This document shows, piece after piece, positions 1 to 27,391 of a stretch of 38,068 nucleotides of DNA. The stretch spans positions 1-38,068 of the forward strand of contig JAQBYC010000037.1 in assembly GCA_027623205.1 (NCBI GenBank), read 5' to 3'. This stretch comes from Pseudomonadota bacterium. Lineage in GTDB: Bacteria; Pseudomonadota; Alphaproteobacteria; GCA-2731375. The position numbers were made by a program, and so were the translations under genes. Within the stretch, counting starts at the first letter, position 1; each line of letters starts with the position of its first letter. The notes beneath the pieces are model-generated. The model was not told the origin of the DNA, did not search any database, and saw nothing but the letters and a program-made list of their open reading frames with translations.

Positions 1-127
1 CACCAACATTGATTCAGACTTCGCGACAATTGGAAAGGGCACATATGAGTCTCAATCAACGCAATCTGGTATTACATCAGTGCGCCATGGGGCGCGGGCA
101 CCATGTGGCCGTGACGTACATAAGCCC

Positions 128-221
128 CAGAGCATGTTTCTTCGAAACATGCTTGGACTCGTATGAATAGAGCAATTGAACCAATTACTTACGTCGCGAT
201 AGCGACTCCGATGAATTGAAA
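128..221 (-). repeat. Dispersed intergenic hairpin element, copy 1
   Basis: One of three copies of a roughly 95-bp element (others at 22721-22795 and 27295-27391). It has a perfect 10-bp inverted repeat (131-140 with 144-153, 3-nt loop) and a conserved core at 165-200 that contains AATTG-AAC-CAATT. A short GTCGC/GCGAC hairpin lies at 193-206. The orientation is given as minus because it then reads in the same direction as the gene that ends just before it (257). The rest of 1-256 holds no gene I can support; open frames there look like read-through of the repeat. Confidence 0.8.
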
Positions 222-256
222 GTTTCTCTAGCTGACCATTTAAACGCAAATTATGG

Positions 257-1069
257 TCAGTAGCCTTTGAAGCTGGGTTTGCGTTTTTCCATGAAAGCGG
301 TGCGGCCTTCGGTGAAGTCTTCGCTGTCGAAACAGGCGGTAATCATCTTGTCCAGTCGGTCCATGTTGCGTTTTTCAGGATCTTTCAGAACTTCCGCCAC
401 GGTGGCCTTGGCGGCACGGATCGTCAGGGGCGCGTTTTCGGCGATCATGCCGGTGTATTCGGCTACCATCGCCTCCAACTGATCCCGCGGCACCACCCGG
501 TTGATCAGTCCCATGGCCAGGGCCTCTTCAGCGCTAAAGCGCCGCGCGGTGAAAAATATTTCCTTGGCCATGGATGGGCCAACCAGGCTGGTCAGGGTTT
601 TCAGTCCGCCATAGTTGTAGCCCAGCCCCAGGCGGGCGGCGGGCACGGCAAACTGACTGTCATCGGAGGCAATGCGAATATCGGCGGCCAGGGCCACCGC
701 CACGCCGCCGCCGATGCAGAAACCCTGGATCATCGCCAGCAGGGGTTTTTCGAAGCCCGCCATGGCTTGATGGGCGGATGCGGTAGCGGCCTTGTAAAGC
801 TCTTCGGACGCGGCGGAATTCCGATTTTCGGCGAATTCCGAAATATCGGCGCCCGAGACAAAAGCCTTGTCCCCAGCGCCCGCCAGCACCGCGACCCGAA
901 TATCATCATCGGCGGCGAAATCTTCCATCACCTCGCCCACGGCCTCCCACATGGCCAGGGACACGGCGTTACGGCGGGCCGGATTGTTGAAGATCAGCCA
1001 GCCGACGCCGTCTTCCTTGCGGGCAATCATCTTGTCGGTCTTTAGGTGCATGGCGCCGGCATCTTTCAT
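257..1069 (-). CDS. Crotonase-fold protein (enoyl-CoA hydratase/isomerase family) lacking both catalytic Glu
   Basis: A 270-residue crotonase-superfamily protein, normal length for the family. The oxyanion-hole segments are visible (VSGADI near 71-76 and GGG at 120-122), so binding of an acyl-CoA thioester is expected. The two glutamates that carry out hydration in classical enoyl-CoA hydratases (in the GGGCEL and QPE motifs) are replaced by Ala124 (GGGVAV) and Ala144 (VPAARLG). A standard hydratase reaction is therefore doubtful; isomerase, hydrolase or another crotonase chemistry is possible. It is divergent from the quinone oxidoreductase at 1216. The start at 1069 has no clear ribosome binding site, and internal ATGs at codons 7 and 14 are alternatives. 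A dispersed hairpin element lies just downstream of its stop. Confidence 0.85.
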   Translation of the reverse strand: MKDAGAMHLKTDKMIARKEDGVGWLIFNNPARRNAVSLAMWEAVGEVMEDFAADDDIRVAVLAGAGDKAFVSGADISEFAENRNSAASEELYKAATASAHQAMAGFEKPLLAMIQGFCIGGGVAVALAADIRIASDDSQFAVPAARLGLGYNYGGLKTLTSLVGPSMAKEIFFTARRFSAEEALAMGLINRVVPRDQLEAMVAEYTGMIAENAPLTIRAAKATVAEVLKDPEKRNMDRLDKMITACFDSEDFTEGRTAFMEKRKPSFKGY

Positions 1070-21677: not shown

Positions 21678-22697
21678 CTAGGCCCCGCCCGTCAGCAGCG
21701 CCTGCACCGCGGCGCGCAGATAGGCCTCGTCGTCCGCATTGTCGGTCGGGTTGCCGGCGCGATGGCCCCAAATGGAGTCAATGGGGCGAAATTCGGCGTT
21801 GGGCATCTGACCGCATTCCCGCTCGCTGTCCTCCGGCGTGAAATAAAGATCCGTGCGCGAGGGCATGATCATGGCGCGGGCCCGGATGGCGCCCAGGGCA
21901 GTGGCCAAGTCGCCCTGGTAAATTTCATTGTCGCTGATATCGGATCGATACCAGGTGGCCAGCATGGACAGCAGGTCATCGCCACTCCGGCGCAGGAAGT
22001 TTGCCTCCCAGACCCGCACCAGATAATCCTCCAACGAGGCAAACCCCAGTTCCAGGTGCTTGCCTTCCCGATAGAAGGCCTGGGACATGGCCCAACCGGC
22101 ATACAGCCGGCCCATGGCGCGCAGGCCGCGCACGGGACGCGCCGCAAAGCCGCCGTCCTGCCAGGCCGGGTCCGCCGTCAGGGTGGCGCGGACGCCTTCC
22201 AGGAAGACCTTGTTGTGGGGCGAGGTGCGGGCCGAGCCGCAGACGGCGCAGATGGTATCCACCAGATCGGGAAACATCGCCCCCCAATGCAGGGCCTGCT
22301 GAGCGCCCATGGACCAGCCATATACCAGGGCCAGGCGCTCCACCCCGAAAACTTCGGCCAACAGGCGGCGCTGCGCCTGCACATTGTCCCAATGGCTGAA
22401 GGCGGGAAAGCGGCCCATGCCGTATGGTTCGGCGAGGTTGCTGGGGGACGAGGACAGGCCGTTGCCGAACATGTTGGGGATGACGATGAAGTATTTATCG
22501 GACTCCAGTATCCGGCCCGGCCCGATCAGCCATTCCGTATCCACATGCTGGGCGCCATACGAGGTCGGATACAGCACAACGTTCGACCTGTCCGCCGCCA
22601 GAGTGCCATAGGTTTGGTAGGCCAGCCGGGCATTGGGCAGGGTCATGCCACATTGCAAACGCAGGTTACCCAGTTCGAAAATCTTGAATTCAGCCAT
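21678..22697 (-). CDS. Alpha/beta-hydrolase, homoserine O-acetyltransferase (MetX)-like fold
   Basis: A 339-residue alpha/beta-hydrolase. The catalytic triad is evident: Ser129 in the nucleophile elbow GWSMGA, Asp283 (RTDLYFTPED) and His312 (WGHRAG). The order and the segments LAYQTYGTL, NMFGNGLSSSPSN and SHWDNVQAQ resemble MetX. The MetX-type opening GGP and a full-length lid are not clear, so a hydrolase acting on an amide or ester is as likely as an acyltransferase. GGAGG lies 8 nt upstream of the ATG. It is the first gene of the catabolic operon, directly behind copy 2 of the dispersed hairpin element. Confidence 0.85.
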   Translation of the reverse strand: MAEFKIFELGNLRLQCGMTLPNARLAYQTYGTLAADRSNVVLYPTSYGAQHVDTEWLIGPGRILESDKYFIVIPNMFGNGLSSSPSNLAEPYGMGRFPAFSHWDNVQAQRRLLAEVFGVERLALVYGWSMGAQQALHWGAMFPDLVDTICAVCGSARTSPHNKVFLEGVRATLTADPAWQDGGFAARPVRGLRAMGRLYAGWAMSQAFYREGKHLELGFASLEDYLVRVWEANFLRRSGDDLLSMLATWYRSDISDNEIYQGDLATALGAIRARAMIMPSRTDLYFTPEDSERECGQMPNAEFRPIDSIWGHRAGNPTDNADDEAYLRAAVQALLTGGA

Positions 22698-22720: not shown

Positions 22721-22795
22721 CTAGAGTACATTTGATCCAAATGTGCTCGGAATCTTCAGAATAGAGCTATTGAACCAATTACTTAAGTCGCGATT
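22721..22795 (-). repeat. Dispersed intergenic hairpin element, copy 2
   Basis: Second copy. The hairpin arms are 22725-22734 and 22738-22747 with a 3-nt loop; the core at 22759-22794 matches copy 1 closely. Compared with copy 1, three base pairs of the 10-bp stem have changed on both sides and one became G-T, so pairing is kept. It lies between the holC stop (22865) and the alpha/beta-hydrolase start (22697) and reads in the direction of both genes. Confidence 0.8.
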
Positions 22796-22864
22796 GAGAT
22801 GCTTCGCATCCCGGCAAGGCGCACGGAAAAGGCGATTGAAGCCGGACCTGCCAACGTAGCAATG

Positions 22865-23311
22865 CTATTTTTTCTCCCAGCCGCCGGTTTCTGTTTGCTG
22901 CCAGTAGGTCAACTCGAGACCTTGATCCAAATAGCGGCGCCAGCGTTGCCGGGCGGCGGCGACCATGGCCGCGTCCCGGCCGTCGAACAGGTCGATGATC
23001 CTGGCGAAGCCGCCGGCCACGGCCGGTTCGCGGCCATCAACGGCCACCAGAACATCGGCGCCGTTGGGGTTCTCATCGTCGATTGTCAGAAAGATCGGCT
23101 GTTCCCCCGGCAAACCGTCACTGCTGCTGCCATGGGGTAGCCAGGATCGATCATCATAGGTCCACAGGACATTGTTCAAATCCTCGACCCGCTCCTGGGA
23201 ACCGGCCAGGACGATGGCGCGATGCCCCCGTTCCAGTGCTTTTTCCAGCAGCTTTGGCAACGCTTTTTCCAGGGGCCAATGCAGCAAATGGTAAAAGCCA
23301 ACCGTGGTCAT
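22865..23311 (-). CDS. holC: DNA polymerase III chi subunit
   Basis: A 148-residue HolC protein. The start TTVGFYHLLHWPLEKALPKLLEKAL and the segments DLNNVLWTYDDRSWLPHG and GEQPIFLTIDDENPNGADVLVAVDG are those of the family. In the replisome chi links the clamp-loader complex to single-strand-binding protein. It lies 24 nt after pepA and on the same strand, the order widely conserved in proteobacteria. The ribosome binding site is weak. A dispersed hairpin element follows 70 nt after its stop. Confidence 0.93.
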   Translation of the reverse strand: MTTVGFYHLLHWPLEKALPKLLEKALERGHRAIVLAGSQERVEDLNNVLWTYDDRSWLPHGSSSDGLPGEQPIFLTIDDENPNGADVLVAVDGREPAVAGGFARIIDLFDGRDAAMVAAARQRWRRYLDQGLELTYWQQTETGGWEKK

Positions 23312-27232: not shown

Positions 27233-27294
27233 ATTGGGGTGCCTTGGGGCGCCATCAATTGGATATGCGCGCCTGAGACGTGTTCTGGCGCTAT

Positions 27295-27391
27295 TTTCAA
27301 TTAATCGGACTCGTTCTCTCGACTTTTGTAATTGGTTCAATTGCTCTATCCTTAGAGAGTCTGGGCATGTTTTAAGGAAACATGCTCTAGG
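27295..27391 (+). repeat. Dispersed intergenic hairpin element, copy 3
   Basis: Third copy, on the opposite genomic strand to copies 1 and 2 but in the same orientation relative to the upstream gene (lptG, stop 27232). The conserved core around 27329-27349 contains AATTGGTTCAATTGCTCTAT. The terminal hairpin has 8-bp arms 27365-27372 and 27378-27385 with a 5-nt loop. It ends 7 nt before the proposed lptD start, so it may affect lptD translation. Confidence 0.8.

Follow-up and report, generated by a model that had tools for sequence, protein, structure and literature searches.

A two-hairpin intergenic repeat of an uncultured marine alphaproteobacterium, probably a genus-specific mobile element of the CIR kind

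The Caulobacter CcrM-associated intergenic repeats, CIR1 to CIR4 (Chen and Shapiro 2003, as described in PMC2229807), are a little-studied kind of repeat, and how they move has no explanation. They are about 110 bp long, consist of two long inverted-repeat arms joined by a linker, contain GANTC, terminate in TA and occur only between genes (PMC2229807). In Brucella, the insertion sequence IS711 uses the target YTAR and duplicates the TA (PMC2266754). In this study we have analysed a stretch of 38,068 nucleotides (the window) from the genome of an uncultured marine alphaproteobacterium, here called G000, and found that it contains three copies of a dispersed element which is also of the 110-bp class, has two arms and a linker, carries GANTC, ends in TA and is intergenic, abundant and alphaproteobacterial. 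It differs from CIR in that its stems are specific to the genus and its GANTC sites lie not only beside the loop of the second hairpin but also in the linker. The family had not been recognised in a first-pass annotation of the window. We assign it to CIR because the description in PMC2229807 matches it in all the features that we were able to test, an assignment that rests on architecture, motif and context and not on sequence homology to CIR1-4. Taken as a whole, the evidence makes it probable that the element is a genus-specific, non-autonomous mobile member of the CIR kind that is moved in trans.

The repeat unit has a modal length of 105-106 bp and is built of hairpin I (element positions 4-28), a 14-nt linker and hairpin II (positions 43-105), the latter with an inner stem and, in the folds, an asymmetric GAAC/AA internal loop. 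In copy 1 of the window, this internal loop and a GTCGC/GCGAC inner stem are seen in both folds and pair counts. That two arms are joined by a linker is shown by folds and by covariation; the consensus sequences fold strongly (z about -6.5 to -8), and the unit has a short terminal inverted match, TAGAGC...GCTCTA. The core from which the first-pass annotation had started, GAATAGAGCAATTGAACCAATTACTT, recurs three times in the window at up to three mismatches and was never found in 100 shuffles, but most of it belongs to the left arm of hairpin II (TAGAGCAATT...AATTGCTCTA). The annotation had thus seen hairpin I correctly and missed the second hairpin, and the unit is larger than it had proposed. 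It had put the three copies in the right places, and the covariance model redraws their limits as given in Table 1, with the right end of copy 2, whose right arm of hairpin II is gone, at 22807 or 22808.

Table 1. Coordinates in the window of the three element copies, their parts and neighbouring genes.
Feature	Position	Strand	Evidence or remark
Copy 1, full-length, 105 bp	127..231	+	Model R1, 103.9 bits
Enoyl-CoA hydratase gene	257-1069	-	Copy 1 just downstream of the gene
Copy 1 hairpin I (GAGCATGTTTC TTC GAAACATGCTT)	130..154	+	Fold, model, covariation
Copy 1 linker GANTC site (GACTC)	156..160	+	Sequence; GANTC enrichment
Copy 1 hairpin II (TAGAGCAATT ... AAGTTTCTCTA)	168..230	+	Folds, pair counts
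Copy 1 hairpin II GANTC site (GACTC)	204..208	+	Sequence; GANTC enrichment
Copy 2, hairpin I and left arm of hairpin II	22721..22807	+	R1 52.3, R2 51.4 bits
holC, flanking copy 2	22865-23311	-	
MetX-like gene, flanking copy 2	21678-22697	-	
Copy 2 hairpin I (CACATTT/AAATGTG subfamily)	22724..22748	+	Sequence, model
Copy 2 linker GANTC site (GAATC)	22750..22754	+	Sequence
Copy 3, full-length, 106 bp, lptG-lptD spacer	27285..27390	-	R1 100.3 bits
Copy 3 hairpin I	27363..27387	-	Sequence, model
Copy 3 hairpin II, decayed	27286..27348	-	Fold z -1.78; model
Copy 3 linker GANTC site (GACTC)	27357..27361	-	Sequence

The copies of this element number several hundred in the genome. The pattern TAGAGCAATTGAACCAATTAC, allowing up to three mismatches, matches 253 places across the genome of 5.02 Mb and its reversed control matches none, so that with at least 253 places the outcome that the annotation had named as refuting, no further copies genome-wide, falls away. 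The covariance model gave 78 matches in 822 kb of G000; in the sister genome G010 it gave 67 in 800 kb, and a few of these matches overlap or are partial. The former number scales to about 450 copies per genome, an estimate on the upper side because the sampled contigs had been chosen for known copies. The element is present in all 11 genomes of the genus that were examined, and the relatives are likewise uncultured marine Alphaproteobacteria (MAGs OFTM58 and BS150m-G9).

The stems of the family show compensated evolution. The changes that the first-pass annotation had read between copies 1 and 2 are exact (T-A to C-G, G-C to A-T and C-G to G-C, plus C-G to T-G). Among 50 copies out of 11 genus genomes, hairpin I turns over between the types CATGTTT, CACATTT, GCATTC and CATTTTC with its pairing kept, the pairs involved being 8-25 (AU/GC), 9-24 (UA/CG), 10-23 (GC/AU/UA) and 13-20 (UA/CG). 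Over the whole structure there are 96 both-side cells versus 31 after shuffling, and 15 pairs have both-side change versus 8.8, a number reached in 0 of 500 shuffles; the covariation score is 0.201, and it is at most 0.062 when the partners are slid. On an event tree built from hairpin II and the linker only, which is independent of hairpin I, 26 branches carry a compensated double change in hairpin I, while the re-paired control has a mean of 0.9 and a maximum of 10. The reverse test on hairpin II gave 7 compensated changes against a control of 1.0 with a maximum of 5. The covariation suggested by the annotation is therefore significant, and the compensating changes separate subfamilies.

Comparison with relatives reveals that the copies are mobile and were inserted recently. 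Copy 3 has a clean empty site, CTAG, between lptG and lptD in OFTM58 and BS150m-G9 (L104). Copy 1 is absent around the orthologue in nine genus relatives (a tenth locus, L128, is a paralogue) and copy 2 is absent beside the orthologous MetX-like gene at 11 loci of 10 relatives; these two have no clean empty site in the relatives because the flanking synteny differs. Split alignment of 822 kb of G000 against 800 kb of G010 yielded further empty sites, TTAG at L042, L036 and L167 and CTAG at L171. With gene calls from a coding model built within this analysis, each of the 68 copies that were placed lies between genes, against 12% expected at random. In 68 copies of G000 and 55 of G010, the left flank reads Y, TA and then a G owned by the element (62/68), and the right flank reads a C owned by the element (66/68), TA and then R; the outer Y and R vary, unlike the near-invariant inner G and C. 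The consensus has TA on either side of the unit, and an exact TA stands at the left of 35/68 and the right of 37/68 copies in G000 and of 38/55 and 43/55 copies in G010, so about half of the G000 copies are without it on each side, left and right being uncorrelated. The clean empty sites show insertion at YTAR, and the flanks fit a target of this kind in which the TA, often imperfect in the copies, is probably the duplicated part. A 4-bp duplication of CTAG is less likely than one of TA, since it is the element that owns the inner G and C and the outer Y and R vary.

We propose that the moving unit would be GAGC-hairpin I-linker-GAGC-hairpin II-GCTC, about 101-102 bp long and bordered by TA, and that an enzyme acting in trans would recognise the two hairpins and the end motifs and insert the unit at YTAR, turning Y-TA-R into Y-TA-[G...C]-TA-R. 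No transposase with the element's ends was found among the DDE_3, DUF4096, DDE_Tnp_1 and Y1 loci examined. As a special case of the same explanation, the element could be a MITE moved by a host transposase of the IS5 family (IS427-type) or of IS630 type, as its terminal inverted match and the presence in these genomes of IS5-type insertion sequences with YTAR-like flanks (L191, L194 and L196), like those of IS711 in Brucella, would allow. We regard this as rather unlikely, in view of the IS5-type ends, GGGYCTGT..., which differ from GAGCA, of G010, which has a recently expanded subfamily but no DDE_Tnp_1 or DUF4096 match, and of the IS630-type loci, which are without the element's ends. A long element with 5' and 3' halves split around a gene was also considered and rejected, since the one apparent pair turned out to be a complete copy from a different subfamily.

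Insertion sequences of at least three types lie inside copies or exactly at their end (L188, G000:C175, 172-1111; L196, G000:C193; L225, G000:C44). They recall IS711 at Bru-RS in Brucella, and the copies look like preferred landing places for insertion sequences. An IS630-type end starting CTAGTCGTCTGAATCATC occurs twice (L143, G000:C28; L044, G000:C21, 1-60), and one of these ends abuts a copy of the element at its CTAG.

The question that follows is where selection on the paired structure acts. Within subfamilies we counted 331 stem breaks on one side only (242 in G000, 89 in G010) and 31 double changes that still pair (20 and 11), so that uncompensated breaks are about ten times as common as compensated pairs, and some of the latter are probably unresolved sub-subfamilies. 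The annotation had held that stem arms varying without compensation would speak against its reading; this is often the case inside a subfamily, but the arms are compensated between subfamilies and we do not judge the reading refuted. Because compensation separates subfamilies while breaks dominate inside them, the shape was probably selected when copies spread and not in each resident copy. As the copies are mobile insertions, the structure is most economically explained as needed at mobilisation, and the concerted change between source lineages while resident copies decay suggests that the hairpins are needed at this step. Most resident copies presumably drift. Inside subfamilies, the rate of private changes is lower in stems than at unpaired positions (0.101 versus 0.135 in G000 and 0.054 versus 0.112 in G010), thus resident copies may be under some residual constraint, or gene conversion may act on them. 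These data tell selection during spread apart from selection on copies already in place, which covariation alone cannot do, and they call for caution in RNA searches that take covariation as proof of an RNA gene.

We consider it unlikely that every copy is a cis-acting RNA structure, such as a 3'-end stabiliser, terminator or riboregulator, kept by selection on RNA. The strong folds of the consensus sequences, the slower change of stems within subfamilies and the 49 gene stops versus 27 starts within 60 bp of copies would all agree with such a role. On the other hand, G-T mispairs are no commoner than A-C mispairs (64 versus 67, and 24 versus 31), so neither strand is favoured as RNA, and one-sided breaks dominate. 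The copies are also species-specific and stand in either orientation (29 antisense and 14 sense between tandem genes), an Rfam search gave no match for the element, and no T-run of length was seen after hairpin I or hairpin II on reading the sequence. The annotation had read the covariation as selection for structure, as RNA or as a protein-bound palindrome. Selection on a paired structure is borne out by the tree and shuffle tests, and selection on each resident copy as RNA finds no support.

Another feature shared with CIR is GANTC. This motif occurs at 12.6 per kb in the copies versus 0.99 per kb outside them in G000, a 13-fold difference (composition predicts 3.56 outside), and at 14.0 versus 0.93 per kb in G010, and of the 16 N-centred palindromic pentamers no other is as strongly enriched. 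At least one site is found in 61 of 76 copies, and in 44 of 50 copies genus-wide. Sites are found in the linker and next to the loop of hairpin II; their N is free, and GA and TC are mostly conserved. A methylase of CcrM type with N6_N4_Mtase and RAMA is encoded in the genome (an ORF at L244); it matches the CcrM model at E 1.7e-181 with 602.7 bits, below the 830-bit cut-off of that Caulobacter-specific model. CcrM would methylate the GANTC sites, and this methylation may couple mobilisation, or the binding of proteins, to replication. Outside the elements GANTC is avoided about 3.6-fold, and the elements, about 1% of the sequence, hold about 11% of all GANTC (L031-L070 and the window). A domesticated chromosomal binding site, at whose dispersed copies a protein that recognises hairpins or GANTC, for example CcrM or GcrA, organises or times replication or transcription, would account for an enriched motif with free N and kept GA/TC in a GANTC-avoiding genome that encodes CcrM. 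Such a function has little probability in our view, given that 15 of the 76 copies have no GANTC, that positions are unconserved between species and that most copies decay.

A palindrome of REP/BIME type moved by a RAYT (Y1) transposase is very improbable, for although the element is likewise a dispersed intergenic palindrome with hundreds of copies and Y1 genes occur in 9 of 11 genus genomes, no RAYT is linked to it here (the roughly 60 kb surrounding 20 Y1 loci hold 0 elements, against about 5 predicted from their density), two element-bearing genomes are without a Y1 match, the two RAYT-like genes of the genome carry their own repeat, GGGTCAGGTCTT, and REP units are 20-40 bp long (PMC3733652), versus 105 bp for the element. 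The RAYT-like Y1 genes (L071, L072, L234, L239 and L240) have an inverted repeat of their own, GGGTCAGGTCTTT / AAAGACCTGACCC, which is a second, unrelated dispersed repeat of these genomes.

Beyond the genus, elements sharing this layout occur in at least six other families. The genus-wide model gave weak matches of 31-47 bits, several of them multi-copy, in 8 genomes of 6 other alphaproteobacterial families, and an earlier model gave one match in a sister genus. Their stems differ, but they keep the layout CTAGAGC-hairpin-GCTC-linker-GAGC-hairpin-GCTCTAG exactly or nearly, with GANTC within 8 of the 10 elements inspected. Rhizobial palindromic repeats of about 103 bp, probably RIME-type (Bradyrhizobium, L212 and L215; Rhizobium, L213 and L214), also have YTAR-like ends, two hairpins and a linker, and three of the four have GATTC in hairpin II. 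They differ in their stems, model R2 giving just 14.9 bits for L212, and resemble Rfam RF02600 (Brucella sRNA CI27) at 32 bits, below its cut-off of 59.8, whereas the window copy has no match. Bru-RS1 and Bru-RS2 of Brucella (103-105 bp), compared by description, are similar in length, palindromes, intergenic location and an insertion sequence with a YTAR target. We see a small chance that CIR, RIME, Bru-RS and the present element form a class-wide superfamily of two-hairpin elements whose movement by an undescribed host enzyme is licensed by hemimethylated GANTC just after replication, with recognition of the hairpins driving the compensated evolution of the stems. For the CIR kind itself, the many subfamilies in sister genomes, the YTAR empty sites and the compensated evolution of both arms provide a natural data set on mobility.

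In G010, probably a MAG from the Black Sea, near-identical copies at L162 (for example L162:7110-7214), L166, L179, L159, L156 and L161 make up an apparently recent subfamily, GAGCATTTTCATTCTGAAAATGCTC. This genome, with a recent subfamily but no DDE_Tnp_1 gene detected, is a good hunting ground for the mobilising enzyme. Three other copies there (L147:9036-9161, L161:6989-7114 and L150:11427-11550) have an additional CTAGAGCAATTCCGAATTAATGAGAA-like stretch within hairpin II and appear to be chimeras of two subfamilies or copies of the two nested in each other.
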